A stretch of 64,000 nt of DNA from the NCBI GenBank assembly GCA_014904985.1, contig MU129157.1, forward strand, positions 7,106 through 71,105, read 5' to 3'. The notes under the pieces were generated by a model. The model saw only the letters and a program-made list of their open reading frames with translations. It searched no databases and was not told where the DNA came from. A program made the translations under genes and the position numbers. The DNA is from Hydnum rufescens UP504 (Eukaryota; Basidiomycota; Agaricomycetes; Cantharellales; Hydnaceae). Of this stretch, positions 33,270 through 57,949 are shown one piece after another (the first letter of the stretch is position 1; every line of letters starts with the position of its first letter).

Positions 33270-33367
33270 CAACTCAGTCAGCCACAAATGTAGGTCTAGT
33301 TAGATATTATGAGCCTTGCATTTATATAGGCTAACTAGAGGTTTTGATGCTGGGGCCCCTGGGGCCA
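33270..33367. repeat. Left terminal inverted repeat of nested element
   Basis: The tip is CAACTCAGTCAGCCACAAAT, followed by TCTAGTTAGATAT, TTGCATTTATAT and GGGGCCCCTGGGG. Reverse-complemented, the right end shows the same ordered blocks at similar spacing. The outermost eight bases are poorly conserved relative to CAGGCTGG at the right end. Confidence 0.75.
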
Positions 33368-33604
33368 GCTAACCTGATTTCTGTGGTTCAGGCAGGGGCC
33401 CCCAGGGGCCCCTGTGTGGGACTTCACATATCAAACCAAGCTCCAACTTATAGATCTCAACTAGGACTCTCTCCCATACCACTGTAGTAGAACCAACTTC
33501 TATTATGAGGTGTATGTACAAACTATGGACACAGAGGAGTATTTATACACAGGAGCAGGATTAGAAAACTATAAGACATGATGTAGTTATACACAGGGGT
33601 GGAA

Positions 33605-34204
33605 TTAGAAGAGATTATGGTTATTTGAGTCTTGTGGAAAAAGAAGAGAAGTCCATAGATCGAGTTGATCAGTGGAGATATTGGAGAGATCAAACTGAAT
33701 GGGAGATAGTGACACAGAGCTGGTCATTGAGGTCAGATTGGTAGGATAGACAGGCACACCAGAATGTGTCACTGTAGGCACTGTGTTACTGAAGGTCGAT
33801 GTTGATGGTCTGTACAGGTTTGGATTAGAACCCAGACCCATTGTACTTAAGCCTAAATCGACACCGAGGCCTGAACCTGAACCATCAGAGTTCCAAACAC
33901 CACCTGGACCAACACCAGGGTGCATCATGGCCACAGGATTTGAACTCGATGTCACCAAACAATCCAAATTCGAAGTTGCTGAGATTCCAAATTCGAAGCC
34001 ATTGAATGGTCCAAATTTGAAGTTCCCAAATAATTCAAACTTGAACTCACTGGAGGCTCCAATCTTGAACTTTCTGGAGGATCCAATATTGAACCCGCTG
34101 GAGGACCGATCTTGAACTTGCTGAGGATCAATCTTGAAATGCTGGAGACCTGATCTTGAACTCACTGGAGGATCCAATCTTGAACCCGCTGGAGGACAAT
34201 CCAA
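33605..34204 (-). CDS. Hypothetical protein with short Phe/Asn-rich repeats
   Basis: A 199-residue open frame starts MDCPPAGSRLD and contains degenerate repeats of the type FKIGASSEFKFELFGNFKFG, then a Gly/Ser-rich and Ser/Thr-rich tail. The opposite strand is also open over part of the repeat, so orientation is uncertain. The minus strand is preferred because its stop lies about 330 bp from the left terminus, like KDZ stops relative to their termini. No family is recognised. Confidence 0.4.
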   Translation of the reverse strand: MDCPPAGSRLDPPVSSRSGLQHFKIDPQQVQDRSSSGFNIGSSRKFKIGASSEFKFELFGNFKFGPFNGFEFGISATSNLDCLVTSSSNPVAMMHPGVGPGGVWNSDGSGSGLGVDLGLSTMGLGSNPNLYRPSTSTFSNTVPTVTHSGVPVYPTNLTSMTSSVSLSPIQFDLSNISTDQLDLWTSLLFPQDSNNHNLF

Positions 34205-34369
34205 AGTTCACAACCTGAATGACTTGAAGTTGTGGAAATTCGATCCAAAGCCATTGGTTTTCAAAGTCCAAGAATCAGAGTCAGATTCATCAATGAAGGC
34301 TTTGATTGAATGCGAGAGACTTTCAATGCCCTTGACTTGGCAGCTGACTGGGGCTTTCTGAGATTTCCA

Positions 34370-35731
34370 TTGTTGGAGGGATAAATCCCTACACCATAGA
34401 AATCTCTCATCGAGGCCATTTTCCCTACGAACAAATCAATTATATGTCACCGCACTCATTTAATTTTATTGCCATTCGTTTATTCAAGAAATCAATTGGA
34501 TTCCTACCCCTTTCCAACCCATAATATCGCCTCATTCCTTTACCATGTCCACCAGTCAATTTATTGACTATCCGTCGGACTTCAACAGTCCTCATCAAAA
34601 AGGGGCAGTTTATGCCCTACTTCAAGTCCATTTTCTTTGGACAAGGCAATTCAACTTGCCATCTTTCTTCAAGACTGGGTGACTTGCCTGCTCTTCCAAG
34701 TCATCCTACTGCCTTAAGGGCGACAGATTGTGATTATGTAACGACACGGACCGGGTCTAGTTCCAATTCTGGACTCGCGGATTCGTCACATGATCCAGAT
34801 AGGGGCTGCAGTACTCTAAAGGAGTATTTTTCGAATTTCTCCGTCAGTTTTGATCGGATCGACTCGAAACGACCGCGCCCAGAAAGATACGAATCGTACC
34901 TATCGAACGGTACCAAACACGAAACGAACGGATCAAAAATGCGGTCCCTGTAACAATATCTTACCATGATTCATACTCTGAAGGAGTATTTTTCGAATTT
35001 CTCTGTCAGTTTTGATCGGATCGACTCGAAACGACCATTCCCTGAAAGCTGTTGAAAATGCGCATCGAACGGTACCAAGGGCAAAACGAGCGGACGCGAA
35101 CTCCATTTTTCACAAGACAACTCCCTCCCCATGACTCCCCTTTGCTCCACCATTCAAAATAGCGAATTACTTCCGGCCCTCTTATGTCCAATGGAGAAGA
35201 CCCTCAGGGCGACCTATTCCACTTTTCCTTAAGGGAACTTGTCCAGGTTTGAAGGAGGAATAGCATGTAATGTGTCAATCTCCCCTTTTATCTTGAAATT
35301 GGAATATCTCCATCAGTTTTGAAGATTTTAACTTGATTTCTTTTTCTCTGTGTGTCCCTTAAGTCCGACTTTTTCACTTTCTATTGAGTCGAAGTCTGTA
35401 TTGTATATTAGGTGCAGCTAGCACACAAATTCATGAGTTCTCCCCCTCCTTCCAGTTTGAAGCTCCTTGAACAGCTGCTGGTCCCTGGGTGATTTCTCAC
35501 TACAAAAAGCGAATTCTAACTACACTTTGACTAAGGTCTCAAGAAGAGATTCTTAGGGTGTGGTAATTTGACTGAAAGACACATTCTCACTTAATTGCTT
35601 GGGCTTTGTTGGCTCACTGCAATTTCCCCTGTTCAAAAGACCTTCCCCCACTCGAACCTGAACATCCGGATTAGATCTGTGATCCCCTCTTTCGTCCCCG
35701 GCTCAACATCGTGGAAAGTAGTTGGATTGGT
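34370..35731. repeat. Dispersed repeat X, copy 2
   Basis: Colinear with 4290-5830. Shared order: CWR-KSL coding-like start, GGCAATTCAACTTGCC, TGCCTTAAGGGCGA, GTGATTATGTAA, two R165 units, AAGGGAACTTGTCC, TTTTGAAG..TTGATTTCTTTTTC, and CACTCGAACCTGAAC. It ends against the 3' end of gene C. Confidence 0.65.
34805..35100. repeat. R165 CpG-rich units, 2 copies
   Basis: Two units 168 bp apart, each starting GGAGTATTTTTCGAATTTCT and containing GTCAGTTTTGATCGGATCGA and CGAACGGTACCAA. The first has about 16 CpGs in 120 bp. Confidence 0.8.
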
Positions 35732-38339
35732 TTAATAACCATCTTGCTTACACCGTGAGGTCAGTTTGGGCTGCCTTGTTGAAGTCATGGTTGACTCGGA
35801 TCCGAAGTCCAGCCCTGCATCTTGGACACAGCAGACTGCATTACCATCCCTGTCAATGACCAATGGGACAGCAGTGTCATCATCAGCATCATCCTCACCC
35901 CATCTTTCAAGCTTAATGGGGCAGCTATTCCCCTTTTGGAACTCAGAAACAAGGAATCTCCACTGTCCACCTTCCCAGCTCTTGTTGGTGTGGCTTGGAT
36001 GTGGAGCAGGGCATTCTTCTTCAAGCAGCCACCTAACAAAGTGAATACGATGCCAGCGAAGCAATGCAAGTAATTGGACCCAAGGAACGGAAACCAGAAA
36101 CCAGGCATGGCCATTGGAGATGAACAAGTTCCTCAAATACTTTGAGGTCGCAGAGTAGGCTGAGTCTCTGGTCTAAAGTTCGTGTTCTCACCATACTTTT
36201 TCTGCCTCTTCATGCCACTTTGAAATTCCAGTAGCATCCAGCCACTCATTCATGAGTTTAACGAACAGCTCCTCAAGAGACTTCTTCAGATTAAACTGCT
36301 TCTCGGCAAGCTGTTGGATTTCTGAAGACCCAAAAAGGATGGCATTCTGTGCATGGGCAGCATATGCATCAGGCCAAGAGCAAACAATGAATGCAACAAC
36401 ATGGGCATCAAAAGTGGCCATGTGCTGAATTTCGCCCATGAGAAGCTTCTTTTTCCAATGGATGTATTTGGCGAGCTTGGTGCCACTTGTGACTTGGACA
36501 TCCTTATCCACCTTTGATTGTTGGGTGAGTGATCGCAGGTCATCTAGCCATGCCTCTAGGCCATCAGTGTCCCCATTGAACCATTCTTTCTCCTTGGCAT
36601 ATTTGAGTCGAAGTCCACCTGGAGATACTAAAAGTGGAAGGGGTTTATCAGCATCAACTAAACCATCACAATAAACATGGAGTACTAACGTTTGGGAAGA
36701 CCAGCAAGTTTCTGTTTTTGACTATATCCATTGAATGGATTAGGCAGCCACTTGGAGTGGAAAGAGTCACCATGATTTGCCAGTCGGAGGACTTGATGCA
36801 GCAGGCAGTTATATTTTTTTGGCCATGGCTTCCAAAGTGTGATGAAAGGCCTCAGTAACCCCATGCACTTCATCCACCAGTGCAGTAGGAAAGGGACCCC
36901 TATTGTACTGTGGTTGGTGAGGCTGGCCTTCTCCGTCACTGCTCAATCGGGTGTCATCGATGTCGTCATCATCTTCAATGTCGCTAACACCTGCTTTGAT
37001 ATCTGAGCCCAGATCAGCATCTCGCAACTCCACTTCATCCTCCGAAATTGCTTCCACTCCCTTGCCCTTGCCATAGGGGACCTTGAAGGGTACACGAAGT
37101 TGTTTTCTTTGAGTGGACTTCAAAGTTGGCAAGGTGTGTGCATCAGTCACTGGGAGTTGGATTGATGGCAACACTTGATCCTTGGGACAATGAATGGGCA
37201 GCACAGGAACTGGTGCAGAAGGGTGAGTGCTTGTTATAGCAGGATTCACGGAGGGGTGACTCCCTGACAATGGCAATATGGACGGTTGCGACTCTGGATT
37301 GCTTAGGAGGAAGAAGTTAGATTGTACAAGAAGAACTGAAACCCAATCAAACATACCTTGACTTCTTAAGAGCCTTCACCAACTTCAGGATTTTGATCTC
37401 AAATTGTTCCAGCTTGAGACCACAAGTGTTGGCAAAGAAGGCCAATCCTTCAATGATGCCAAGAGTGCCACATGGACCCTGCCTCATCTCTTTAGCAAGA
37501 CGAGATACATTTATGCCTTGAAAGACACGATTAAGAGTGTGATCAATGAACTCACAGTCTTCACTGGGATCTGCCCCTTGGTCAGGGAGGGACCAGAGTA
37601 GGGTGTTGACCTGGGTAGCATCCCAGACATAGAGAAGATCCCCTGGGCATGCTTCTGGAATGCCAGTAGGCAGATTAAGTGCCAATGTCTGTGCATCATT
37701 GAGCAATTTGCAAGGGTCACCAATTCGTTGTGCTTTGTCCAACAGCTGGTTGGGTGTATCAGATTCTGGCATAGACCCTCCATCATCAGAGGAAATGTCC
37801 ATGACTGAGGACAGTCTGACACGACTGCCAGATAGAAGCACTGTGGGTTCTTTATTGTACCCAAATGTTGAAGATGCATGTTCGGGTTCAGAGCTTTGGA
37901 TGGGTAGGAGAGGAGGATCGTTGGGGTAGTCTACCTGACTGGAAGTAGGAGTTCCATTCAGAAGTGATGCCGATCTCCAAGACTCATGCTGATATTTGAC
38001 TTCAGGGATTTTAGGGTGAGATTCGAGTTGGATATACACCTGATTCTTAGGGGGTTGCAAGGGGGTTGATGCAATGATGTGAAACTTCTTGTTCCTCCAG
38101 TTGCCTCCAGGCAGACCCGATTTTTCCTGCCGTAGACATCATGTAAGAACAGGAGCAGGGATTCTAAGTAGAGGCATACATACCATATTGGCAGTTTCAT
38201 CATTGACTTCATCGTTAGCTTTGTCATCTACCTTGCACCTGCCAATATTGATCTGAGGATATGACAGTTCCTGAGACATCGCATTCTGTTGCGAATAATA
38301 GGTGAGCTCGAACTTGCAAGACAAGAAATCAGGAGACAT
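35732..38339 (-). CDS. Gene C: five-exon hypothetical cargo gene
   Basis: Exons run 38339-38184, 38126-37357, 37301-36690, 36627-36197 and 36139-35732. Introns are 57, 55, 62 and 57 bp, all GT-AG, and phases agree at every junction. The protein begins MSPDFLSCKFELTYY. A Ser/Pro/Asp-rich region follows, then an acidic patch (IEDDDDIDD), then FFANTCGLKLEQFEIKILKL upstream of it. A helical part has WLDDLRSLTQQSK and LAKYIHWKKKLLMGEI, and it ends with an aromatic block NGHAWFLVSVPWVQLLALLR. One flaw exists: an A7 run at about 36814 needs to be A6 to keep frame from AMAKK into YNCLLHQVL. Clean splicing suggests a recently functional gene of roughly 790 residues. I do not recognise the family. It lies inside the nested KDZ element and is read toward the left terminus. 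Confidence 0.7.
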
Positions 38340-38935: not shown

Positions 38936-39089
38936 GGTATTTGCTGATCTATTCAACACCTCAACGGAATACCAATAAATGCCATTCCCATATGTAGATA
39001 TACATACATCCATACATACATGCAGGATTAAAAAAATGGAGGTGATGGGACAGGGTAGAAGAACAATGAGAGAATAGCAAAAATATTAA

Positions 39090-40253
39090 TCATCTCCCTC
39101 TGCTACAAATGACCTCATTGGGCTTCAGAAAGAGGGTCAGCACTGAACATGAAGAATCCCACTGGATGAACCATTCTTGGGACTCTGTGGACCCAATGGC
39201 TTCCATATGGCATTTGTGTGAGGGGTGAGAATACCTGATGGATGCATCTCCCAGAGCAGCTGAATCTTTTGCCTTCTGGGCAAGCTCACGAACCAAAATA
39301 TCATATGGTCCTCCAGTAATGTAGAGAGGGACCCAGAATGGCACAATATTGTGGTTAAACCGATCCATGTGGGAATTCACAATCATCACTAAATGTCACT
39401 GTACCACATGATCAACCTTGTCCAGAGCTTCCAACAGCCACTTTGTGCTGAAATCCACTCGATCCATAACCTGTGGTGGAGGATAATCACAATCATGTAC
39501 AACTGGAGGATAGTGATAGAAGTCCAGGAAGCAATAGCAAATGTAATGCTGTAAGGAGGCATCTGCGCCAGGAGGCAGAGGAAAGGGGTGTAACTCCCAT
39601 AGGTTGCCAATCTCTCGATGGGGAGGCACATGCTCCAGTAGGGTGGCAAGATCACTCAGGGATGTCTGGTATGAAAAGGACATCTCGACATAATCGGGAT
39701 CCAGCATGTATCAAAATGAAAAAACGGCTTCATGCCGACTGACAGGCACCGAAACAGCCTGTTCAAATTCCCACAGCAAATAATGACCTGAGACAAATTG
39801 CTTGAGAATGAGGTCCTGCCTCCACTGGGATTTAAAGGCCAGCAACACTTTTTGCTTCTTGTGTGCCAGGCCTTTTGCTGTTTTGTTCTTATGAACATGA
39901 ACCCCGAGAAGGCCATCATGCATCAGCAATTGGAAAATTGCCTTGATGTCTATGTCAGCAGTGACACCAAAGAATTTGATGCGATACCAATTGCCGACAA
40001 CAACAAGTGGATCGAGGTCTTCCACCATTTCCCCAGAAGGCTCAAGACCGACTTCATTTGTACCCCCTTGCTCATCACAAGGCGAAAGTGGCGGAGCAAT
40101 TGGCAACACTGCTTGAAAGGGGGGATCCACTGGCATATGGTCCTGAGGAGGGGGTACAGCTTGCTGCACATCCTGCATTTTGGAATCGCCAGGGTCAGGG
40201 GGAGACACCACAGGACACACAGGTGTCTCCTGCTCTTGATGGTTGATTTCCAT
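39090..40253 (-). pseudogene. Gene B (unrecognised), copy 1
   Basis: Read from 40253: MEINHQEQETPVCPVVSP, a Pro/Glu-rich part, then NWYRIKFFGVTADIDIKAIF, then (after an in-frame TGA near 39714) LDPDYVEMSFSYQTSLSDLA, YPPPQVMDRVDFSTKWLLEA and, after a one-base shift near 39400, TFSDDCEFPHGS, IVPFWVPLYITGGPYDILV and ELAQKAKD. A 50-bp GT-AG intron at about 39184-39233 would splice to a C-terminal VPRMVHPVGFFMFSADPLSE. In copy 2 the NHNIVPFW junction is in frame where copy 1 has an extra T, so some breaks are likely sequence errors. Upstream of 40253 the frame runs into a minisatellite, so the true start is uncertain. No known domain is recognised. Confidence 0.5.
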
Positions 40254-40264
40254 CTCTGGACCAT

Positions 40265-40535
40265 ATTGCTGATTGGGGGGGGAATGAGGAGGGGAATGGC
40301 AAGGAGGGGATCGGTGAGGGGATCAGCGAGGAGGGGAATGGCAAGGGGAATGGCAAGGAGGGGAATGGCGAGGAGGGGAATGGCGAGGAGGGGAATGGCG
40401 AGGAGGGGAATGGCAAGAAGGGGAATAGCAAGCAGGGGAACAGTGAGAAGGGGAATAGCAAGAAGGGGAATGGCAAGAAGGGGAACTGTGGGAAGGGGAA
40501 CAGCAAGAAGGGGAACAGAAGCGATGAGGAGAACG
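40265..40535. repeat. 15-bp GGGAATGGCAAGGAG minisatellite
   Basis: About seventeen degenerate 15-bp units (AGGGGAATGGCGAGG type). Both strands stay open in several frames (Leu/Pro/Ile-rich or Gly/Arg-rich), which is a repeat artefact. The copy in the second block is at about 43960-44175. Confidence 0.85.
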
Positions 40536-40844
40536 GAAGCAGGAAGGAGGCAAGCAATGTGAGGGGGAATGAGAATGAGACTGATGGGAAGGGCAACAAG
40601 GAGATGCCGAACGATGGGGGGAGTAATGCAAAGCATGGCAGTAATCACCCTGAGAATATCATTGCAAACCATGCTCACCACTGGGTAAGCAATGGCCAGT
40701 AACTTGAGGTCGATTCTTCTTATGCGGGCATGCCGGTGTGGAAGATAAAAACATCCAGTATCAGAAAACACAAAATCACACCACTCTCAGCCTTTGGACG
40801 ATCACATGACCAATTACAAAATTAATTACGGCTACACGCAGAAA

Positions 40845-41290
40845 TCGAATTCGTTCTATAACTCCGTCAGTTTTGATCGGAGAGGTACGCCCATATAACG
40901 CTTAGAAAGCTACGATTCACACCTTTTGAACGGTACCAAACACAAGTCGAACGGACCAGAAATGCACTCTACAGACCAATATTACTGTCAAAATCCGAGA
41001 TTTTCAGTAAAAAACGAATTTCTCCGTCAGTTCGCATCCAATCCTCTCGGAACAACCACGCCTGGAAAGATATAAAAAATCCGCATCCAACGGTACTGAG
41101 CACGCAAAGAACAGATCAAAACTGAACTCTACAGAACTATATTACTGTCAGAATCAACACCCATCAGTAAAAAACGAATTTCTCTGTCAGTTTACACCGG
41201 ATCTGCTTGGAACCACCGCGCCCAGAAAGCTGTTAAAAATCCGCATCGAATGATACCAAGAACGTCTATTACGGATGTAAACTGTTGTTT
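40845..41290. repeat. R165 CpG-rich units, 3 copies
   Basis: Three units about 165 bp apart contain CGAATTTCTCCGTCAGTT-like starts, (A)GAAAGCTACGATTC and CGAACGGTACCAA. They lie between gene B (minus) and the promoter-like cluster at 41489. The second block repeats them at 44505-44950. Confidence 0.8.
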
Positions 41291-41488
41291 CTACGTCAAA
41301 TCCCATCCCATGCACTTGTCCCCATTATCAACCAGCAACAAAACATCTTAACCACTGGACTACAAACAAATTAATCTCCAGAACTCGGAATATCCTTTGA
41401 TTTCATCTCCATTGCCACAATAACTTCTAGAACCTCACAGATAAGAAAGATAACACCTTCTTAGCAACCCTTTTGTTCTGTTTATGAA

Positions 41489-41717
41489 TGACTCACCCTC
41501 CTTGCAACCACTTTATGAAAGATAACACCTTCTTAGCAACCTTTTGTTCTGTTTATGAATGACTCACCTATCATGCAACCACTTTATGAATGACTCACCT
41601 GTTATGCAACCACTTTATGAATGACTCACCTCCTTGACAACCCTATTGTTCTCACATATGACTCACCTAGGAGTGAGTCATATTCTTTAAACACAGCCAC
41701 CTTCAGAAAGGTATAAA
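41489..41717 (+). promoter_or_regulatory. Six TGASTCA sites before a TATA box
   Basis: TGACTCA occurs at 41489, 41560, 41591, 41622 and 41659, and TGAGTCA at 41674. TATAAA follows at 41712-41717. TGASTCA is the site of Gcn4/AP-1-type bZIP factors. Part of the cluster is built of tandem units (TTTATGAATGACTCACC). About 190 bp downstream of the TATA box a CCAAGGAAAG/GTGAGT donor (41941) could end a first exon. The transcript driven on the plus strand is not identified. Confidence 0.5.
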
Positions 41718-42318
41718 GCTGGTAGATTTTCCTGTATCCCCCCATCATCTTCTCACTACTGGAATATACTACTGTCTACAAATCTGCTTGCATCTTAAGA
41801 GAGTACTGATCTAAAGCCATCTGGAGCTAAGTCACATACAAGGTTGTTAAGACTAAGTCACTGGAAGCCCTCTACGCGAAATACTGAGCCAAGGATAGTT
41901 GCAGGACCTAAGGTTAGAGTTGCTGGACATCCAAGGAAAGGTGAGTAAAAACAAAGTTAAGTCAGAAGAAGAAAGAAACACTTGACATACTAAATCAAGC
42001 TTAAACTAGTCTAGAGTCCTCTTTAGAATCTGCATTTTGACCCAGGAGGACACAAATAGATACCCACAAATAGCAGTAAACAGTTCATACAACACGTATA
42101 AGCCTTTCACAAGCATCCCCACGATAATCATCATTGACTATAGCTAGTCCATACCACAATCTTATCCTCCACTGAATACCATACCTAACTTGTTAGAGAG
42201 TGATCACCATCAGAGCGAACCAAGCCCATTGAATAAAAACAGAATACAGTTCCCACATCTACACACCTGGCTGAACCAGAGTTTGATTTGACAGTCATCG
42301 GAGCTCCCAATCATTCTT

Positions 42319-42529
42319 CTATACCGGCCTTGGATTGAGCATGGCTCGGGACCATCTCTGAAGCACATAAGTCTCCAGGGTGGTGCAGTACACCTTATGC
42401 TTGCTCTGAGCAGCCAGGACCATCAGAAGGATGCCCTCATGGGCATCTGCATTTCCTGCCAATGCCAGACCCAGGTCTGCAGTGACCTGTGCCACAGGGA
42501 TCTTCATTCCAGGCCTTCTCAATCTGGGC
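42319..42529 (-). pseudogene. Family A gene, C-terminal fragment at gap
   Basis: This encodes QVTADLGLALAGNADAHEGI, LLMVLAAQSKHKVY and CTTLETYVLQRW, identical in kind to the C-terminus of A2 at 46195-45985. It is truncated by the N run and is probably the same gene assembled twice. Confidence 0.8.
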
Positions 42530-42554
42530 NNNNNNNNNNNNNNNNNNNNNNNNN
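42530..42554. other. Assembly gap (25 Ns)
   Basis: A placeholder gap between two overlapping-looking blocks. Confidence 1.
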
Positions 42555-42772
42555 AATATGAGAAAAATAAAGGAAGAGATTTATGTGGAGTAAAAAGATG
42601 TTCCTTTCACCTCGGTGTATTTGCTGATCTATTCAACACCTCAACGGAATACCAATAAATGCCATTCCCATATGTAGATATACATACATCCATACATACA
42701 ATGCAGGATTAAAAAAAATGAAGGTGATGGGACAGGGGTAGAAGAACAATGAGAGAATAGCAAAATATTTAA

Positions 42773-43924
42773 TCATCTCCTCCTGCTACAAATGACCTCA
42801 TTGGGCTTCAGAAAGAGGGTCAGCACTGAACATGAAGAATCCACTGGATGAACCATTCTTGGGACTCTGTGGACCCATGCTTTCCATATGGCATTTGTGT
42901 GAGGGTAGAAATCTGATGGATGCATCTCCCAGAGCAGCTGAATCTTTTGCCTTCTGGGCAAGCTCACGAACCAAAATATCATATGGTCTTCCAGTAATGT
43001 AGAGAGGGACCCAGAATGGCACAATATTGTGGTTAACCGATCCATGTGGGAATTCACAATCATCACTAAATGTCACTGTACCACATGATCAACCTTGTCC
43101 AGAGCTTCCAACAGCCACTTTGTGCTGAAATCCACTCGATCCATAACCTGTGGTGGAGGATAATCACAATCATGTACAACTGGAGGATAGTGATAGAAGT
43201 CCAGGAAGCAATAGCAAATGTAATGCTGTAAGGAGGCATCTGCGCCAGGAGGCAGAGGAAAGGGGTGTAACTCCATAGGTTGCCAATCTCTCGATGGGGA
43301 GGCACATGCTCCAGTAGGGTGGCAAGATCACTCAGGGATGTCTGGTATGAAAAGACATCTCGACATAATCGGGATCCAGCATGTATCAAAATGAAAAAAC
43401 GGCTTCATGCCGACTGACAGGCACCGAAACAGCCTGTTCAAATTCCCACAGCAAATAATGACCTGAGACAAATTGCTTGAGAATGAGGTCCTGCCTCCAC
43501 TGGGATTTAAAGGCCAGCAACACTTTTTGCTTCTTGTGTGCCAGGCCTTTTGCTGTTTTTTCTTATGAACATGAACCCCGAGAAGGCCATCATGCATCAG
43601 CAATTGGAAAATTGCCTTGATGTCTATGTCAGCAGTGACACCAAAGAATTGATGCGATACCAATTGCCGACAACAACAAGTGATCGAGGTCTTCCACAAT
43701 TTCCCCAGAAGGCTCAAGACCGACTTCATTTGTACCCCCTTGCTCATCACAAGGCGAAAGTGGCGGAGCAATTGGCAACACTGCTTGAAAGGGGGGATCC
43801 ACTGGCAATAGGTCCTGAGGAGGGGGTAAGCTTGCTGCACATCCTGCATTTTGGAATCGCCAGGGTCAGGGGGAGACACCACAGGACACACAGGTGTCTC
43901 CTGCTCTTGATGGTTGATTTCCAT
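42773..43924 (-). pseudogene. Gene B (unrecognised), copy 2
   Basis: Same gene as at 39090-40253, with different frame breaks. The stretch NHNIVPFWVPLYITG continuing to GFFMFSADPLSEAQ is in better frame here, whereas the central DLDPLVVVGNWYRIK part is disrupted (about 43680). Comparing the two copies gives a better consensus than either alone. Confidence 0.5.
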
Positions 43925-45157
43925 CTCTGGACCATATTGCTGATTGGGGGGGGAATGAGGAGGGGAATGGCAAGGAGGGGATCGGTGAGGGGATCAGCGA
44001 GGAGGGAATGGCAAGGGGAATGGCAAGGAGGGAATGGCGAGGAGGGGAATGGCGAGGAGGGAATGGCGAGGAGGGGAATGGCAAGAAGGGGAATAGCAAG
44101 CAGGGGAACAGTGAGAAGGGGAATAGCAAGAAGGGGAATGGCAAGAAGGGGGAAGTGGGAAGGGGAACAGCAAGAGGGGAACAGAAGCGATGAGGAGAAC
44201 GGAAGCAGGAAGGAGGCAAGCAATGTGAGGGGGAATGAGAATGAGACTGATGGGAAGGGCAACAAGGAGATGCCGAACGATGGGGGAGTAATGCAAAGCA
44301 TGGCAGTAATCACCCTGAGAATATCATTGCAAACCATGCTCACCACTGGGTAAGCAACGGCCAGTAACTTGAGGTCGATTCATTCTTATGCGGGCATGCC
44401 GGTGTGGAAGATAAAAACATCCAGTATCAGAAACACAAAATCACACACTCTCAGCCTTTGGAGCGATCACATGACCAATTACAAAATTAATTACGGCTAC
44501 ACGCAGAAATCGAATTCGTTCTATAACTCCGTCAGTTTGATCGGAGAGGTACGCCCATATAACGCTTAGAAAGCTACGATTCACACCTTTTGAACGGTAC
44601 CAAACACAAGTCGAACGGACCAGAAATGCACTCCTACAGACCAATATTACTGTCAAAATCCGAGATTTTCAGTAAAAAACGAATTTCTCCGTCAGTTCGC
44701 ATCCAATCCTCTTCGGAACAACCGCGCTGGAAAGATATAAAAAATCCGCATCCACGGTACTGAGCAACGCAAAGAACAGATCAAAACTGAACTCTACAGA
44801 ACTATATTACTGTCAGAATCAACACCCATCAGTAAAAACGAATTTCTCTGTCAGTTTACACCGGATCTGCTTGGAACCACCGCGCCCAGAAAGCTGTTAA
44901 AAATCCGCATCGAATGATACCAAGAACGTCTATTACGGATGTAAACTGTTGTTTCTACGTCAAATCCCATCCCATGCACTTGTCCCCATTATCAACCAGC
45001 AACAAAAACATCTTAACCACTGGACTACAAACAAATTAATCTCCAAGAACTCGGAAATATCCTTTGATTTCATCTCCCATTGCCACAAATAACTTCTAGA
45101 ACCTCACAGATAAGAAAGATAACACCTTCTTAGCAACCCTTTTGTTCTGTTTATGAA

Positions 45158-45388
45158 TGACTCACCCTCCTTGCAACCACTTTATGAAAGATAACACCTT
45201 CTTAGCAACCCTTTTGTTCTGTTTATGAATGACTCACCTATCATGCAACCACTTTATGAATGACTCACCTGTTATGCAACCACTTTATGAATGACTCACC
45301 CTCCTTGACAACCCTATTGTTCTCACATATGACTCACCTAGGAGTGAGTCATATTCTTTAAACACAGCCACCTTCAGAAAGGTATAAA
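45158..45388 (+). promoter_or_regulatory. TGASTCA cluster and TATA box, second copy
   Basis: The counterpart of 41489-41717 with the same six sites and TATAAA at 45383. Confidence 0.5.
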
Positions 45389-45984
45389 AGCTGGTAGATT
45401 TTCCTGTATCCCCCATCATCTTCTCACTACTGGAATATACTACTGTCTACAAATCTGCTTGCATCTTAAGAGAGTACTGATCTAAAGCCATCTGGAGCTA
45501 AGTCACATACAAGGTTGTTAAGACTAAGTCACTGGAAGCCCTCTACGCGAAATACTGAGCCAAGGATAGTTGCAGGACCTAAGGTTAGAGTTGCTGGACA
45601 TCCAAGGAAAGGTGAGTAAAACAAAGTTAAGTCAGAAGAAGAAAGAACACATTGACATACTAAATCAAGCTTAAACTAGTCTAGAGTCCTCTTTAGAATC
45701 TGCATTTTGACCAGGAGGACACAAATAGATACCCACAAATAGCAGTAAACAGTTCAATACAACACGTATAAGCCTTTCACAAGCATCCCACGATATATCA
45801 TTGACTATAGCTAGTCCATACCACAATCTTATCCTCCACTGAATACCATACCTAACTTGTTAGAGAGTGATCAACCATCAGAGCGAACCAGCCCATTGAA
45901 TAAAAACAGAAATACAGTCTCCCATCTACACACTGGCTGAACCAGAGTTTGATTTGACAGTCATCGGAGCTCCCAATCCTTCTT

Positions 45985-48012
45985 CTATACCGGCCTTGGA
46001 TTTGAGCATGGCTGGGACCATCTCTGAAGCACATAAGTCTCCAGGGTGGTGCAGTACACCTTATGCTTGCTCTGAGCAGCCAGGACCATCAGAAGGATGC
46101 ACTCATGGGCATCTGCATTTCCTGCCAATGCCAGACCCAGGTCTGCAGTGACCTGTGCCCACAGGGGATCTTCATTCCAGGCCTTCTCAATCTGGGCCAC
46201 AATGCGCACCTTCGCAGCGATCTCCGTGTCATTCAAATGCAGCTCCTCATCATCTTCAACAGACAGATTGGAATCCAAATCATTCCACTCTGGAAGATTG
46301 GTCATGGGATTGACCCAAGGGGTTAGATCCTCATGGTCTAGATTGGGGGGGGTAGGCTCTTCATTGAGATCGATCTCAGCATCAATAGCAATGAGTTCAC
46401 CTTTTCCTTCTGGTGGCGAGGTCCTATGAGATGGCAGTGGCACCACATGGCAAAGGGTGACTGATGAAGGACCAAGGAGATTAGCGAGTGTTGCAGCCAT
46501 AGCACTGTCCACTTCACGAAGGCCGGCGCCAAACAAACTGTTGAAGATGGACCATATAGACTGATTATTATCGGATACAAAGATCAGATACTGGATGTAC
46601 CAAGGTGATGGATGCTTGACCTCTGCTGCTTGAGACATCTTCCAAATTTCCACAAAATCCCCATGTGGCTCAGTATGTTCAGTGACACGTTCAGCAGCCT
46701 AATGGGTCTCCGGGTCAGAAACGGAACTGAAGGAATCTAGAGGACAGACCTCCCTCTCCTCCAAAACCCGAATCCTGTCAAGGGAACACCATGGCACTCC
46801 AACTCGGCGACTGGGACATCCACATTATCCATGATGAAGAAACAACCGATCAATGAGTGATTGACTCCAAAACGAGGCGGCTCCAAACCACAGACAAAGG
46901 CTATATGATTGAGGGTGCAATGCATGAGAAGTCGTGCAGTTGCAAGCATCTCTGCTTCGGTGTCCTCGATGGCCACAACCTCCTTAGTAATTGCATGCTT
47001 AGAGTAGGATGCCTGGGCAGCTTCCGGTAGTTCTCGATCCCTACTCTTGACCAGAAGCATCACCAAGTCGGAGTGGTGGTTGGGTCAGAAGAGTGGCATA
47101 TTGTTGAGGTCCAAAAGGAAAAACTGCGCAGCCTCCAACCACCAGCAGTAACAGTCAAATGTGAATATAAGCTTCCCATGCATTTCACTGATCTAGCAGT
47201 TATTGAGGTACCAATCGTGTGTGAGGTGAACTTTGCCGAATGGTAAGAATGGCATGGTTCGGTGCTGGAGGAGATAGGGATGATGCAGGGCATTGCAATT
47301 GTAAATGTGCCTCACACACAGCTTGTCAATGAATGACCAGGCCGAATGTGGTTGCTGCCAGGATCGAACATTGCAGGGAGACTCGGGCCAATGTCTATGC
47401 AGGGTTTCTCCAGGTAGCATAGAGTTAAGGCCAGAAAACAACAGGTTGAAAGGGGGACGTGCTGGAACAGCACCAGGGTTCTCCAACAGTCCCAATAGTT
47501 CCTCAGACATATCCTTCTCCCAAAGGGTATTGGTGTATTCGAGCACCCAGCCTTGGATACTGACAAAACAGTCATCAGAGATAGGCCATTCACCGATGGC
47601 ATCTTTGAAGACCAAGTTAGTCTTTGGGAACTCCTGATACGAAATTTATATAAATGCACCATGTCGCTTCTGCTTGAAGTGACAGAAGTACCACTTGCAG
47701 ACCTCTCCATATGACTCAAGAATTGAAATGACAACGGGCTTCATGGGGGTGAGAGGTTCGCCTAACCGCCATTGCAATGGCCTGGAATTGTCCCAAGGTG
47801 TCCACGGGTAAAGACTTCTTGGGTTCAACTGTAGAGCTGGTGGTAGAGGCAGGTGTTGAAGTGTTAACTTTCTTTTGGAACTTGGGGAACACCTTCTGTG
47901 AGCTGCCAGACAATGACACTGCAGGGGTAGGAGATGCCAGCATCGAAGAACATTCAGTCATTTGACTCAGTTTCTTGCTCGAGGTCAGTCTTTTTGATGT
48001 AGTTCTCACCAT
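45985..48012 (-). pseudogene. Family A unrecognised gene, copy A2, near-complete
   Basis: Read from 48012: MVRTTSKRLTSSKKLSQMTE and a Ser/Thr-rich start; then LTPMKPVVISILESYGEV and CKWYFCHFKQKRHGAFI; then NLVFKDAIGEWPISDDCF and GWVLEYTNTLWEKDM; then HLTHDWYLNN and FDCYWWWLEAAQFFL; then HCTLNHIAFVCGLEPPRFGV and ECHGVPLTGFGFW; then HPSPWYIQYLIFV; an acidic region; and VTADLGLALAGNAD to the end. Stops or shifts fall near 47645, 47190 and 47095, some possibly unmodelled introns. Copy A1 at 872-3240 shares the order. No enzyme motif is recognised. It lies upstream of KDZ-2 on the opposite strand, about 2.8 kb away. Confidence 0.6.
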
Positions 48013-48619
48013 CTCTCTAACAGACCTGTACGACCCCAGAGCAGACTAACCACTCCAAAGCACAAAGATAAGTTTGAGGGATAACTGAGACTCTGAGAGG
48101 TCAGAAGGAGAGTTAAAGTTGAGAAGATTTGCATCCGCACATTCAATTGAGGATGCTGAATATTTGTGCCAAACGTTATGGGACTTGATACTATTAGCCA
48201 CATTAAAAAGGATACATTGTAATATTATTCCTAGGGCATTATCTATGAGTCTACAGCTGGAGTTGATTGAACTCACTTGAGCCACTTCTGAAAACTAATG
48301 TGGCTCTTTGGGCGATATAGTGTACTTATGGCAGACTAGATAATACGTGTTTTCAGTATTCCATTTAAATCATATACATGTGCCAGTCCCACACGAATCC
48401 GTGATGCGATTTGAACTCTGTATCTAAAATGCAACAGTCCATTTCCATATATATATATATGTTCACACGACTCCATGACAGGATTCAAATGCTGTATCCA
48501 AAATTCCTTAAAATAACAAGCAAGCAGCGACTTGGGATGTGGCATCATACTGATATAATGAGCTCCTGAGTTCTTGGTGAATATTGCTCCAGGATGAGGG
48601 GATCCCATTCATTTTGGAG

Positions 48620-49125
48620 TGTGTGAAGGACAACTGGGATTGAGGTCAGAGTCACTGGACATGGGGACACAGTCTGAGAATCTATCCATCTGGCAATATA
48701 AGCCTGACTAGTTTGAAGAGATGAGTCCACTGAAGGCTTACTGGTTTTTATTTGGATTAAATCCTCTTCCATGAGTCTTCCCCAGTGATTGGATCAGTTC
48801 CATTTTCCAAGATATATTTCTCTATCAAGTGACGCTCGTAAAGGTGTCCTAATTTCGAAGATACAATGGGGATTTAAGGGGGATAACCGGGATTGAGGTG
48901 AGAGTGGCTGGGCATTGGGGCACAGTCTGAGAATCTATCTGCATGGCAATATGAGCCTGGCCACTTTGAGGAGATCAGTCCACTGAAGGCTTACTGGTTT
49001 TGATTGGGATTAAATCCTCTTCCGTGGGCCTTTCCCCAGTCATTGGATCAGTTCCATTTTCCAAGACATAGTTCTCTATGAAGTGATGCTTGTAAAGGTG
49101 TTCTGATTTCGAAGACACTGGGCGT
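48620..49125. repeat. ~250-bp tandem duplication
   Basis: Two adjoining copies (about 48630-48868 and 48878-49121) share CTGGGATTGAGGTCAGAGT-like, ACAGTCTGAGAATCTATC, TCCACTGAAGGCTTACTGG and GGATCAGTTCCATTTTCCAA. Divergence is roughly 10-15 percent. No gene is seen in 48013-48619. Confidence 0.85.
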
Positions 49126-50084
49126 GTCCCCAGACAATGCCATTGGTGTTAACTGGAAACAGCTGCAGCGTTATGACTCATGTCAAAATAGTCACAATAA
49201 TCGAGCATCACGTCACACGATTTGACTTAGGGGCTATACGAGTTGCAGTCCAAGTCTGTATCGGGTACACCTCTTGGATCTATGTGGACAGGCATATTGA
49301 CTGCAGTGTGAATATTCAAAAATATATTGGTCAAAGTCTGACTTGACAAAACAACTGCAAGAGCTCAAGACAGAGCTTCTTAGCCTGAGCCTGTGTGTGC
49401 AAAAGATTGCCTCTCTGTCAGCATCCAAGCTCTCCCAAATGTGTGTCGCACATAGTGATTTTCTCCACTAACAAATGAACATGCCTGTTTCTCCTACACC
49501 TTTAGCTCCACCATTTGCAAATCTATTGCCCATGTTCTGACTGTCACAAACCAAAAAGCATGCCAGAATCTGCAAGAATATTACAAGAACAAGAAGTACC
49601 TTCCTCTGGATGGACCTGCCCATAAAGAAAACCCATGCCATCCACTGTTGATTGACAAGGGTGGGTTACCCCCTTCTTGCTATTCCCCTATCGATGCCCA
49701 ATGTGCCTAATTCTTTTTTCTGGCACCAGCAATCAGGGAAGATGGAAAAGCAACACAAACAGGACATTCACTTCCCTACCAGGAAAGACACTCTTAAGGC
49801 ATGAGGGAGCAAAGTGAAAATCACTCATCAGCTTTGACCTCACTGTCATGTATGTGGAACAATTTTTGACTTGGAGGTCAGGAAACACTGTTGTGCAAGC
49901 GAAAGCAGCCAGTACTGATCAGGCAAGGGTGCAGTTGATATAGCTAGTCTTAGAACATTATTCAATTTTTGATTCATGAACAAATTTGAATTTACTTTGA
50001 GGTGCATGTCTCTCGCTGGGGTGTTGAATCGCTGGTTTTCTGGTTTGCATCTGGAAAGTTCGTTTTGACACTGCTTGTAGCCTT
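49126..50084. other. No gene recognised
   Basis: Only short frames. No repeat or motif stands out in this interval between the tandem duplication and the next array. Confidence 0.4.
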
Positions 50085-50620
50085 ATCGCTTGGAATTGTG
50101 ATTGTAAAATCTGTGGATGGGCATTCTACCCAGTCTGCATGTCCCAGGCTTATGCGATCCAGTTCGACAGACAGAGTCATTGCTTGTGAACAAACATTCT
50201 ACCCAGTCTGGGTTTACGCAACCTGGTTCAACAGCACTGATTACTGCCCACGTATTGGGTCCACTGTTCTGATTGGTGTCACACTTGTCGCTCTTGTAAA
50301 ATCCGTGAATAAGCATTCTACCCAGTCTGCATGTTCCATCACACCACTGCTTGTAGCCTTATCACCTGGAATTGTGATTGTAAAATCTGTGGATGGGCAT
50401 TCTACCCAGTCTGCATGTCCCAGGCTTACACAATCCAGTTCAACAGCTACTGTCAGAGTCATTGCTCATGAATGAACATTCTACCCAGTCTCAACCCGGT
50501 TCGACATTACTGATTACTGCCCATGTATTGGGTCCACTGTTCTGGCTGGCATCACTCTTGTCCTCGTAAAATATGTGAACAAGCATTCTACCCAGTCTGC
50601 ATGTTCCATGTTTAGGTGGT
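50085..50620. repeat. Higher-order repeat with CATTCTACCCAGTCTG motif
   Basis: CATTCTACCCAGTCTG occurs at 50122, 50195, 50314, 50398, 50477 and 50584. Intervals show a repeat of about 276 bp containing three motifs each, duplicated once. A plus-strand frame (50002-50475) and several minus frames stay open across it but repeat the same residues and are not credible genes. It precedes KDZ-2. Confidence 0.8.
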
Positions 50621-50797
50621 TTGTGCGAGTGATGCTTGATTATCTTCCTGGCTCCTACTATTGGTGAGTACAATTCTGTTACTCAGGCCATTGCCCACTA
50701 ATGCTGATATGTTGGCCATAAGGGTTGCGATTAATTCATCCATAGAATTTGCATATGACTGTCCCACCAAACCAACAAGCACCACTGCCCATTCGCC

Positions 50798-53700
50798 ATG
50801 CCTCCCAAACCCTCCAATGTCAACATTCTGATTGATGAGAGTGACCCACAATCCTCTCGTAAGTGTAAACGTCCCTCCAGCAGGCTACAAACCCATCCCT
50901 CCCCACCAACATCTGCCACATACTTGAGTGCATATGAAGATAGTATGAAAATGTTCCAAGCTGTGACCAATTCCATAACTAAATGGAATCCTGCCCATGG
51001 GGCGTCAATGCGAACCTGGGGCCCACATTGGCATTGACGTTTAGAGTGACACCACTCCCCCAATCCAGTACCAAGCATGTATCCACCATGCAAGGTACGA
51101 CTTGGAAACTTGATCCCAATAGCAATATGTTTGTGGCAGTTGTACCAATGAATCGAGGCACTAAGGTGCAATGACCGACTCCCCGAGCCAATATATCTAG
51201 GCCTCGCTATCACCAAAATGCACCATCTTCTGAGCCATCCCATCTTCCTGATCCTGGTGGTCCATCTATGTTTTCTGGTGACATCGAAGAGGAATTGGCA
51301 GCAGGTGGTGGCAATGTTTCTTCTTTAACCTCACCCAAGGCAGTCAAGGAGCCCTTCGTCGTTCAATACCCGCTGTATGCCAGAGATCTTGACCAGATAT
51401 CTGTGGAGCAGAAACTGTCTCAACATGTGTGTCGACAGGCTGCTGCAGTGCAACATTGGAATCGTGATGTCATACCTGGCTTAATTCATCTGTATATGGA
51501 GCACATGCGCAAATCACAGCAAGGCCAGCTGCCTACAAGTCCTGTGCCACACACATGCTCTTGCGATGGCATTGGGGTAATGAAGCAGGTGACTGCAGTA
51601 TACATGGATCGTGAGTACATGCTTGGTTTGATCTTGGTCCAGAAACTGATAATTGTCCATCTAGGCCTCGACTATGTGCAACTACACATATGTCCATGTG
51701 CCCCCGCACCTGTCCAATTGGTAAAGTGGGGTTTGTTCCCCTGCTCGCCAGTGTATCCAGCTCTTGCTGTCAGCCTCGACATGCTGGAGTTTGTGTCCAC
51801 ATTGTTTGTACACTTGGCTCCAAATGAGACAGCATGGGCAGATGCCCTGACCTCATTTTTGGCAAGGCAAGGCCATGTATTCAAAGTGCAGGACTCCCTC
51901 TGCCAACGATTTGTGTCTGCCTTAGGCCAATACCAGGTCCTGGTATGCATTGTTACTGCCGAGATGGATAAACAGATCAGTGTGGCATGGCATGTAGTCC
52001 TCTCGCGAGACCCTGCTGATAGGGGTGATATTCCTCCAGAAACAATAATGTTACCCATAATTGATGACTCCACCCCTATAACAAATCGTTTGTACATCAG
52101 TGCACTGAGTCCTGACAGTCAGTCTGTTCACCAGCCCTCTACTTCCACCACAGAGAATTCTTCTCGGTCTCATGCAATTGCTCCACCTGTGCCCAACCCC
52201 AACCTCCATACTTGTTCTAACACCCGTTCTGTACTGTCTGATTACCTTCATTCTTGGTGTCCATTGTGCTTCGGAGGTGATGTATCAGGAGGGGGTAAAC
52301 TGTGAGTATTTTGCAATTTATCCTCATGTCTCTTGCTAATTTAGTGACATCTTTTGCAGGCCTGACTTTTTCTTATGCCTTGATGCCTGCTTCACCATCA
52401 GGAGGAACAAAGACTATGATCAGTGGCCAGGCCACAAAAAGCAACTGGGCATTCAGGACCCTTGCATTGTTCCACCTGGAACCTGCGAATTGCCCTGAAG
52501 TTTTCTGGAGATCTGGAAAGCAAGGGTTGAAGAAGCCCATCCTGGCAATCCAGCTAGGCGAATGTTGAAGAAGGGAGAATATGCCCTGGATGGCCCAGAT
52601 GCTGATGATGACATTATCGAGGCTGGGCTACATGTCCCAAATTCATCGCTAAATATCTGTGGTGAATCCTTCATTGCTGCAGATGGTGACAGGGTAAAGA
52701 CTCCTGGAGAGTGCTTCTCAGACACTGGTGTGATGGCAGGTGTATGTCATCATGATCATGTGGTCATGTGGGTGAATATGTGGACTCCCAGTGAACAGCA
52801 ATCCTATGCATTGGCTCTCATTGATGCAATAATGGCTGAGCTTCCCACGCACTGGCGAGTTGGTATCCTGTATGATATCGGCTGCCAGATTCATCACAGC
52901 ATACTTAAGTGGAATCTGTTGCCTTGGTGGATACCCCAGATTGTGTTTGGAATAAGTGTGTTTCATGCATATTGCCATCAGTGGGTGTGCCAGCTATGGT
53001 ACAATCCTCAGAAGGGGGGTGTCTGGGGCCTCACTGATGGAGAGGGTTGCGAATGCCTTTGGAATGATCTTCAGCACCTCATTCCAAATCTCTGTGTAAC
53101 TGGATTCCATCGACGTTTGTTTGTTTTGGATCTCCAAATTGAACATCTGGACCACTTGAAGATGCAACAGGCAGGTGTCTGGTTGGAGAAGTGTGTGAAA
53201 GCTATGAAGGCTCACCTCATAATTGCTCAGGAGAAGAGAGCCAGAATCCCACTCAGCAATGAGTTCCTGCAGTCTCAATTTGAAGAACAGCGAGCCTACC
53301 AGAGCTGACCTCTCGAGCGACAATCAAAGAAAAAGGTATTCCTTGCTGTTGAGAAGATCCTGGCTGTCCGTCAATGCCTTGATGCAGCTCAGGATCTTGT
53401 TGAGGCCCTCCAGAAGCAACTCATTGCCATACCAGTGTCTGACACCATTGCAACTCGGAACAAGGTTGGGGAGATTACATCTGCCCTTGCTGAACAAGAG
53501 AAAGTTGTCTCATGCTTGTCGAAGCAAGAGGATGATTTAACTGCTATCCTCAAGCTTGGAGGCCTGGTGTCATATGACAACCTCAAGAAAATGAAGGATC
53601 ACCCATGGTTTGAACACCAACTTAATATGCGTGTGCTTAAAGCATGCATTCTTGCCAAGGCATGCCAGAGGAATTTCAAGGCACATAATCTCACTGGTGC

Positions 53701-55088
53701 TTTCAGGAGCAAAGCCTTAGGTGAGTTATTCATAGTTGGAGTTTAACTCGTATTATATCATATTAACATTATTATCCTTGATGATAGATCACAGTACTGT
53801 GGAACACATGAATAAAGCATTCAAATGCTGGTATCAGTCAATCAAGAACCTTGTTACAGACTACAATAAGCGCCGACTCAGTATGATCAAGCTTCGCAGA
53901 TGGCATGGGATTCCCCATAATGCAGTCATCCCTCCTCCCATTGAGATGAAGGGTCTGTTTAGTCTTGATGTGGACAATGATATCTGGCAAGATATTGGAC
54001 TTGCTGATGATGAATTTGGCGGACAGGTCCCTCCTTGGCTAGGGGATGAGGATGTCCGAAATGGGATCCAAATTGTTCAAGAAATCATGAATTGCCATGA
54101 TGAACTATATCTCTGTGAATGTGAACGGTCCTCTTTGCAGCATTGGTTCAATGATGAATTGGCTGCATTGATCACTGTTTTACAGGCTTCCAAAGGTAAG
54201 GGGGTGATATCTGGCAGAAGGGTGTGCTAATTTAGTCTACCTGCAGAGGATGCTGACCTCCAGTTCTTCTTGTGGGAACATGCTCAGTAGCTTATAGATT
54301 TGGGCAAGAGGTGGGGATGCTCCATTGATGCATTAGCCCCCAATGTTGCTCAGTCAGTCAGTCAATCCGAGGTCAGTCAATCCGAGGTTGGTCAATCTGG
54401 GGTTGGTCAATCCAGGGTTGGTCAATCCAGGGTTGGTCAATCCGAGGTTGGTCAATCTGAGGTTGGTCAATCCAAGGTCACTCAATCTGAGGTTGCTCAA
54501 TCTGAGGTTGCTCAATCCGAGGTCACTCAATCCGAGGTTGCTCAATCTGAGGTTGCTCAATCCAAGGTCACTCAATCCGAGGTTGCTCAATCCGAGGTTG
54601 CTCAATCCGAGGTTGCTCAATCCAAGGTTGCTCAATCCAAGGTCACTCAATCCAAGGTCACTCAATCCAAGGTCGCTCAATCCAAGGTCAGTCAATACAA
54701 GGTCGGTCAATCCAAGGTCGGTCAATCCAAGGTTGCTCAATCCGACATGCCTCAATCTGGCATCTCTTGGGCTGATTTCCCTCGATGAGGTGGCAGAACC
54801 TTGACTAGTGAGACCAGGGCTCTGCTTGATTGCAGCATGCCCATCCCACCCCTGTCCAAGTTGGCAGGGTCCTTAGCTGAACAAGCAGCAATCCAAAAGT
54901 TGCCAAGGTCAGACAAATGGACAGTGGGCCCTGGAGAAGGGGAGGTGGATAGCTCAGATGATGATGAAGAATTTGAGCTGGAGCCTTGGCCAGTTATTGC
55001 TGACCCAGTCCTACTTGCAGCTACAGACCTCCTTCATGAGGGTCATTCGGATGATATGGGAAGTGAGACTAGTAGTGATGAAGAATAA
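50798..55088 (+). pseudogene. KDZ transposase KDZ-2, nearly intact
   Basis: The frame starts MPPKPSNVNILIDESDPQ at 50798. A CxC1 cluster lies at 51560-51800 (HTCSCDGIG, HICPCAPAPVQLVKWGLFPC, LAVSLDMLEFV), then CPLCFGG. Intron 52302-52359 follows, then FFLCLDACFTIRR, GVMAGVCHHDHV, RVGILYDIGCQIHHSILKW, HAYCHQWVCQLWYNPQK and DGEGCECLWNDLQHLIP, then long helices. Introns 53721-53787 and 54196-54246 follow, then a pentapeptide minisatellite and the acidic tail SSDDDEEFELE with stop at 55088. Stops are a TGA near 52497 (after GTCELP), a TGA at 53306 (AYQS*PLERQ) and a TAG near 54288. There is also a frame change after TKWNP near 50990. It is the transposase of the nested 22-kb element and lies against its right end. 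Confidence 0.9.
54345..54760. repeat. 15-bp minisatellite in KDZ-2 (about 28 units)
   Basis: Units of GTTGGTCAATCCGAG type encode V-G/A/T/S-Q-S-E/K pentapeptides in the KDZ-2 frame. Neither KDZ-1 nor KDZ-3 has it at the equivalent point before the acidic tail. Both strands are open, but only the plus frame matches the gene. Confidence 0.9.
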
Positions 55089-55274
55089 GTCCATGTTATC
55101 TACATATGTACTTAGCAAAAATAATACAGAAACTGAAACCATTAAGTTAATTGTGGGGGCCCCTAGCTGAACTTAGAAAATACTTGGGTTTGAAATGAGG
55201 CCTTTGGAGGCAGTGCTGAGGGGCCCCTGGATCAGTACTTGAGCCCCCCTGAGCCCATCCAAGTTAGCCCACAG

Positions 55275-55371
55275 GGCCACCAGGGGCCCCATGGCTGTAT
55301 ATCTAATTAGAGCATATAAATGCAACCCTCAAAGTATCTAATTAGATACTGATAATTGGCTGACCAGCCTG
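55275..55371. repeat. Right terminal inverted repeat of nested element
   Basis: Read inward from 55371 on the minus strand: CAGGCTGGTCAGCCAATTAT, TCTAATTAGATAC, TTGCATTTATAT and GGGGCCCCTGG. The outer 19 bases match the ends by KDZ-1 and KDZ-3. Confidence 0.75.
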
Positions 55372-57577: not shown

Positions 57578-57949
57578 TTAGGACTCAAGGAAGGCATTCC
57601 AATGACTGGAATCAAAATAGTGATGACAGCTGGGGTAATCATCACCAAACCAATCATAGGCAAATCCCTTGACCATTTCTTCCATTTCTGTATCCACACT
57701 TTCCCCCTGCTTATTAGATTCAGCCAGAATATCTAAACAATGCCACTTAATGGGCTCGTCAGCAGGTAGAATTTCGCCAGTCGCAGGTAAAACGGGTGAA
57801 GGATTGGGGGCTGGAATGACTTCTTTGACTCGAATCTTGGAGCTGGCAGGTCGGGGTTCAGGCCATATGTACACATCATGCAGTAATTCCCCAGGAACTG
57901 TTGGATCCAGAACTGTGGGAGTGGGATTCCATTCCCAATCCACAGCATA

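Follow-up and report, generated by a model that had tools for sequence, protein, structure and literature searches.

The DNA analysed here, a stretch of 64,000 nucleotides that we call the window, comprises positions 7106-71105 (forward strand) of contig C249 in the 63.2-Mb, 539-contig assembly of Hydnum rufescens UP504; C numbers denote contigs of this assembly. At 33270-55371 it holds a large transposon of the KDZ superfamily, inserted in the transposase gene of another KDZ element. This transposon is very probably a decayed copy of a multicopy KDZ family in which a transposase and two accessory genes, B and A, lie between imperfect terminal inverted repeats (TIRs). The features concerned are the following.

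31976-33269, minus strand: outer (target) KDZ transposase gene, 3' half (joined-flank alignment, tblastn)
33262-33269 (left copy) and 55372-55379 (right copy): target-site duplication (TSD) GAAGAGTG, an exact match between copies
33270-33414, plus strand: left terminus of about 145 bp, kept in large and shorter relatives
34371-35753, no strand: about 1.4 kb of inserted DNA at the gene-A 3' end, absent here from C144, C374 and C48 (blastn break points)
35747-38315, minus strand: gene A, accessory and conserved, located by tblastn with P0034 and P0043 and mostly covered by NCBI model BS47DRAFT_1400451
38937-46197: probable assembly artefact, in which 38937-42529 is repeated as 42617-46197 over the gap 42530-42554 (97.7-97.8% identity)
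39093-47943, minus strand: gene B, likewise accessory and conserved, with an insert that interrupts it and a partial duplication due to the assembly; located by tblastn with P0014, P0018 and P0027 and partly covered by NCBI model BS47DRAFT_1400452
40733-42326, and again at about 44399-45992 through the gap repeat, no strand: about 1.6 kb of inserted DNA nested in gene B (blastn break points)
42530-42554: gap of 25 N inside the element
48581-49140, minus strand: decayed fragment of host PRP19 (U-box and Prp19 region) in two tandem copies (81% and 84% blastn identity with the host copy on C8)
50735-54227, plus strand: KDZ transposase with CxC1 cysteine cluster (PF18758, 7.5e-42; PF18802, 2.5e-7; tblastn)
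54302-54826, plus strand: array of 15-bp tandem repeats within the 3' portion of the transposase region (repeat search)
55272-55371, minus strand: right terminus of about 100 bp (genome copies; 80% over 100 bp in the second family described below)
55380-56564, minus strand: outer (target) KDZ transposase gene, 5' half with CxC1 (PF18802, 5.9e-11; joined-flank alignment, tblastn)

The nested insertion is real: a large KDZ element inserted itself into a second KDZ element, within the transposase gene of the latter. As the original prediction had it, both borders carry the 8-bp duplication, and the two halves of the outer gene join in frame; when the flanks are joined with one duplication copy kept, the outer KDZ protein aligns gap-free and in a single frame over the junction between QFYA and CTL. 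The proposed genome search for the empty outer gene, made with a 500-bp joined-flank query, found the uninterrupted site contiguously in 18 paralogous places at 93-96% identity, and some further matches hold the whole site at 74-76% (both among the best 40 of 155 candidates). The window's own locus appears as two split matches (query 1-252 and 243-500), and their 10-base overlap consists of the 8-bp duplication and 2 chance bases. Stop codons are present in the joined sequence, which indicates that the outer gene is, or has become, a broken transposase gene.

The element had been given a length of 22 kb, a figure inflated by a repeat that ends exactly at the 25-N gap. The 3,593 bases 38937-42529 match 42617-46197, and the match stops at the last base before the gap; the two copies differ by 24 mismatches and 56 insertions or deletions, 46 of which lie in runs of at least 2 identical bases (a count made without a control). 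Apparently two ends of one sequence were left unmerged in the assembly, and the copy in the window would therefore measure about 18.4 kb. Its relatives on C144 and C374 measure 15,668 and 15,349 bp, and relative to both of these the window copy carries two extra inserts, of about 1.4 and 1.6 kb by blastn. Elsewhere in the window, a second suspect gap (736 N at 17240-17975) lies in a WD40/NACHT-like gene region at 13513-20482 (Pfam WD40 and NPHP3_N) and is bordered by near-identical repeats, 97% over 941 bp, so that this gene is probably misassembled too.

The element has its own KDZ transposase close to its right end, as predicted. The window copy of this gene contains one TGA inside the KDZ match, and its frame is broken when compared with the C374 copy, which matches PF18758 at 9.5e-48. 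Together with the PF18758 domain, the CxC cluster, TIRs of the Zisupton type and the 8-bp duplication place the element in the KDZ superfamily, of which Iyer et al. 2014 is reportedly the source. At least 154 KDZ matches were found genome-wide (with the best 150 of 584 candidates). No tyrosine-recombinase family appeared among 64 different proteins scanned with Pfam, a set that covered part of the open reading frames (ORFs) of the element and, for one WD40 ORF, 25 of 56 families. Nor was a TET/JBP dioxygenase found among the element ORFs so scanned, a scan that the PE type, very distant from known TET/JBP proteins, could escape; the whole genome gave one PF12851 (TET/JBP) match, on C5, below the Pfam cut-off.

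Ordered inverted repeats of about 97 bp had been claimed for the ends. They are real, the outer 600 bases giving an inverted-repeat alignment score of 98 against a maximum of 36 in 200 shuffles, and they are imperfect, with 74 identities in the first 100 bases (70% counting gaps) and a similar value of about 70% over 100 bp in seven copies compared. The left terminus recurs over 133-155 bp at 92-98% in eight shorter copies, and over 145 bp at 79-80% in the second family. The suggested search for other copies with both ends gave, at up to 3 mismatches, 205 genome matches to the left-end 30-mer and 161 to the right-end 30-mer, with 0 for reversed-pattern controls. Among the first 100 matches listed per end, 34 left ends have a correctly oriented nearest right end within 60 kb, 23 of these pairs spanning 3.4-5.6 kb, and 3 pairs have the wrong geometry. 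Fourteen of the 34 pairs, the window copy included, were fetched and checked for duplications. Nine have perfect 8-bp duplications, namely 2 of the 6 large pairs (C249, and C144 with TTGCTAGA) and 7 of the 8 shorter ones; the tally becomes 10 of 16 once the second-family copies on C90 (with) and C200 (without) are added. The shorter copies have only the ends in common with the window element, and in an ORF listing of four of them (C55, C69, C317 and C278) there is no stop-free stretch of more than 159 residues. In sum, the predicted large KDZ DNA transposon with an 8-bp duplication is borne out, and it belongs to a multicopy family in which both termini are conserved. We also observed left-type ends that face each other (C201:98126-100977 and C56:67712-78060) or stand back to back (C110:59328-59579); these left-left pairs are possibly elements with two left ends, or solo ends.

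Between these termini the transposase lies on the plus strand, and gene B followed by gene A lies divergently on the minus strand, as judged by tblastn. The original prediction counted at least four unrelated genes here, a count that does not survive: it comes down to genes A and B, whose long ORFs are partly doubled by the repeat, together with the PRP19 fragment and the two nested inserts. The NCBI gene models (P0026, P0016 and P0034) fuse or truncate A and B. When the JGI protein P0027 (1,218 residues) is aligned with the C374 copy of gene B, the match extends over 1,273 columns at 35.5% and stays in one frame through two in-frame stops, which indicates that gene B is a single long gene.

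The same three genes recur in a second family. The KDZ proteins of the copies on C90 and C200 (family II) are 73-77% identical to that of the window's family (family I), the transposases of the two families being 73-80% identical overall. For the accessory genes, identity over the longer matches is about 46-50% in B and about 44-53% in A. C90 and C200 cease to be homologous to each other at termini with about 80% likeness to the family-I ends. The C90 element (C90:6977-25456, 18,480 bp) has GAGCTGTA on both sides and A, B and KDZ inside; the C200 element measures 15,773 bp and is without a duplication. Because these ends enclose A, B and KDZ, two families have all three genes inside the mobile unit. 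The ratio of nonsynonymous to synonymous substitution rates (dN/dS) between families is 0.17 for gene B (529 codons, C374 versus C286, whose protein matches C200 at 92%), 0.25 for gene A (254 codons, C144 versus C200), and, for the transposase, 0.23 in the CxC part (292 codons) and 0.07 in the KDZ part (277 codons); dS stands at 1.0 in the CxC part, and in A, B and the KDZ part it approaches saturation at 1.7-2.8. The recurrence of A and B as a fixed pair, the C90 duplication and the dN/dS of 0.17-0.25 together suggest that A and B behave as transposon accessory genes. The pair would thus be a resident two-gene module conserved between families, not random host cargo.

The association is visible across the genome. 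Gene A gave 103 matches (all 108 candidates scored), which we merged by hand to 86 loci, and gene B at least 40 hand-merged clusters (from the best 47 of 253 and 44 of 293 candidates). At distances of up to 10 kb from gene A, gene B lies upstream on the same strand in 28 cases, downstream on the same strand in 2 and on the opposite strand in 0, where 0.27 would be expected per class. For KDZ genes within 20 kb, among the best 150 of 584 candidates, the counts are 11 upstream and divergent, 7 upstream on the same strand, 3 downstream on the opposite strand and 1 downstream on the same strand (2.0 expected per class). The Poisson value for the 11 divergent pairs is 1e-5, or 1e-4 without the two family-I loci, the loci being not fully independent. 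In four divergent cases (C71, C86, C19 and C26), 10.1-13.0 kb apart, the identity of gene A is only 33-37%. The window contains a second KDZ gene, KDZ-1 (9390-12639, plus strand, KDZ domains by Pfam), and about 6.7 kb upstream of it a divergent ORF (1905-2660, minus strand). Single comparisons show this ORF to be weakly similar to gene B, at 25% and 27% over some 150 residues (E 7e-8 and 5e-8). Direct comparison gave no gene-B similarity for the ORF next upstream of KDZ-1 (2737-3207) or for ORF 57581-58042 in the right flank of the outer element. The similarity at 1905-2660 hints that the partnership of KDZ and gene B may be older, and that a KDZ family more distantly related shares this arrangement.

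As proteins, A and B offer few leads to function. Searches in which candidates share exact 5-residue words (about 8,000 scored per search) matched Hydnum rufescens proteins plus P0019, P0027 and P0057 (JGI) and P0046 (ENA), and PDB-sequence and AlphaFold searches with A and B gave no informative match. Gene A has a weak resemblance to the RFX DNA-binding family in 3 of 20 members (best E 0.021, below the cut-off), and the C-terminal pattern of gene B is possibly RRM-like, which we mention as a lead only.

The PRP19 fragment is the only clearly host-derived passenger of the element. A genome-wide search with PF08606 detects a single full host PRP19 (C8, 108 bits) along with 11 partial matches at nine places, each in a contig that carries gene A, gene B or a right end of family I; the match in the window is at 48566-48649. 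The host PRP19 exon matches four element copies at 79-84%, as two tandem pieces with insertions and deletions, and in C374 and C144 the Pfam match is split over two frames. C90 and C200 show no PF08606 matches, so the capture may be limited to family I.

The copies have decayed through C-to-T change at CpG. There are 323 changes private to the window copy, 275 of them C>T or G>A, and of these 249 are at CpG; the corresponding CpG fractions are 164/183 in C144, 172/196 in C48 and 25/36 in C374. In C374, 69 of 120 changes are T>C or A>G, which we read as sites where the other three copies decayed in parallel. Among the KDZ matches listed, premature stop codons number about 168 TGA, 11 TAG and 5 TAA (hand-copied). 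This pattern would fit deamination of methylated CpG; the genome has two cytosine methylase matches.

We propose the following history for the element. The unit, 15.3 and 15.7 kb in two copies, would consist of a KDZ/CxC1 transposase on one strand with B and then A divergent from it. The transposase presumably cuts at both termini and inserts with an 8-bp staggered cut, the duplication being seen and the chemistry being that expected from the superfamily. Transposition in trans is probable for the shorter relatives (3.4-5.6 kb), whose ends are the same. Selection has retained A and B, the simplest reason being a benefit to the element itself, and their likeliest role may be help in transposition, DNA binding or escape from silencing. 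The family acquired a piece of host PRP19, which has since decayed, and the window copy jumped into another KDZ transposase gene, took two inserts and was eroded by CpG mutation.

Several observations weigh against this interpretation. Comparisons within family I put dN/dS at 0.48-0.91 for the longest four gene ORFs of C374, which suggests that the family-I copies no longer evolve as genes, as would be expected of dead copies. Six of the 16 end pairs (C243, C374, C48, C66, C5 (223574) and C200) are without a duplication, 5 of the 8 large and 1 of the 8 shorter ones; those on C243, C66 and C5 (223574) contain long N runs, and some of the six may be chance pairings or recombined. Among the B and KDZ matches listed, only 28 of the 86 gene-A loci have an upstream B, leaving 58 without gene B in that arrangement, and 11 have a divergent KDZ. 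The A-KDZ counts treat loci as independent, and the distance bin of 9-13 kb was picked after the data had been seen. Neither A nor B matches any Pfam family over the cut-off, and their AlphaFold models are of low confidence (mean predicted local distance difference test scores of 45 and 41). Finally, mobility is deduced from sequence, no movement having been observed.

Other explanations account for parts of these data. That A and B form a separate element, nested in or beside the KDZ element and carried by chance, would suit a genome full of nested elements in which gene A occupies more loci (the 86 above) than there are complete elements found. However, both families hold A and B inside KDZ termini in the same order and orientation, C90 has intact ends with an 8-bp duplication, and the comparison of C144, C374 and C249 is without a homology break beyond the two inserts and the gap repeat, a comparison that did not include a dedicated search for A-B termini; we regard a chance passenger as quite unlikely. 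The original prediction likened the element to Starships. Read in this way, the element would be a giant cargo transposon that shuttles A, B and other captured host genes around the genome. Its large size and the captured PRP19 fragment are what such an element would show. Against this, A and B are a fixed pair common to two families and in the same place inside the termini, the transposase is a KDZ enzyme with TIRs and 8-bp duplications, and no clear host version of A or B was noticed among the matches listed (for B, the best 47 of 253 and 44 of 293 candidates; hits not individually tested). With the PRP19 fragment as the only clearly host-derived piece, we consider gene transport in the Starship style very unlikely.

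The least credible alternative is that an assembly error put two unrelated KDZ halves around the element. The assembly does seem faulty here, with a repeat ending at an N gap, yet neither border of the element lies at a gap, and the shared 8-bp duplication, the alignment over the junction and the 18 uninterrupted paralogues would hardly arise from such an error. We return to the family of KDZ transposons with resident accessory genes, and compare it with described systems.

In Cryptococcus neoformans, KDZ1-3 combine KDZ and CxC1, have TIRs of 139-241 bp, a length of 9-11 kb, insertions in genes and observed mobility, with duplications of 8 bp for KDZ1 and 4-8 bp for KDZ2 and KDZ3 (PMC12810828). 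The Hydnum element resembles them in its KDZ and CxC1 domains, TIRs, 8-bp duplication, large size and insertion in a gene; it differs in that its unit is 15-18 kb with two accessory genes, none being mentioned in the part of that report available to us, and in that mobility was seen there and is read from sequence here. Zisupton likewise has an 8-bp TSD, TIRs and a KDZ domain (PMC12730594), a likeness that assigns the Hydnum element at the level of the KDZ superfamily only. Kyakuja-1_LB and -2_LB of Laccaria (PMC12730594) are also KDZ transposons with an accessory gene and CA..TG termini, but they have a 7-bp TSD, no TIRs and a TET/JBP gene, whereas the Hydnum element has an 8-bp TSD, TIRs, and A and B, and so falls outside the Kyakuja definition of a 7-bp TSD without TIRs. 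In Pleurotus, intact KDZ transposons are preceded by CxC2 (PMC7641404). Plant Pack-TYPE transposons (PMC8903248) share with the Hydnum family a captured host gene fragment, here PRP19; they are non-autonomous, whereas the Hydnum family encodes a transposase. Starships move by a tyrosine recombinase (PMC12134995) and resemble the Hydnum element as large fungal elements; the latter has a different enzyme (KDZ), TIRs and no cargo cluster, and we do not count it as a Starship. Neither a KDZ element with such a module nor any KDZ element in Hydnum was found described in the literature searched, as far as the available parts of those sources go. Our best reading is that the element is a three-gene KDZ-superfamily transposon whose gene complement was found nowhere described in that literature.

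Three further features of the window lie outside the element: a Tc1/mariner-like DDE_3 transposase fragment at 58779-59198 (plus strand, 2.9e-14) with inverted repeats at 57984-58158 and 59346-59520, a Copia-like retrotransposon remnant with RVT_2 and SH3-like domains at 26859-28391 (plus strand), and part of an Alg9-like mannosyltransferase at 25059-25397 (plus strand, PF03901, 2.3e-21), probably an ordinary host gene between elements.

In the portions of the literature available to us, KDZ elements are described as a transposase plus, in some lineages, a TET/JBP gene; here at least two families share a two-gene partner module. We offer tentatively, as a doubtful idea, that A and B form a module for counter-silencing or for the control of transposition, in place of the TET/JBP gene of other KDZ transposons. 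If this were true, the module would let KDZ elements expand in this genome despite almost no detectable TET/JBP and despite methylation-like marks. The element also shows that KDZ transposons can pick up pieces of host genes, as with PRP19, and the shared module raises the question of whether KDZ transposons cope with host silencing in more than one way.

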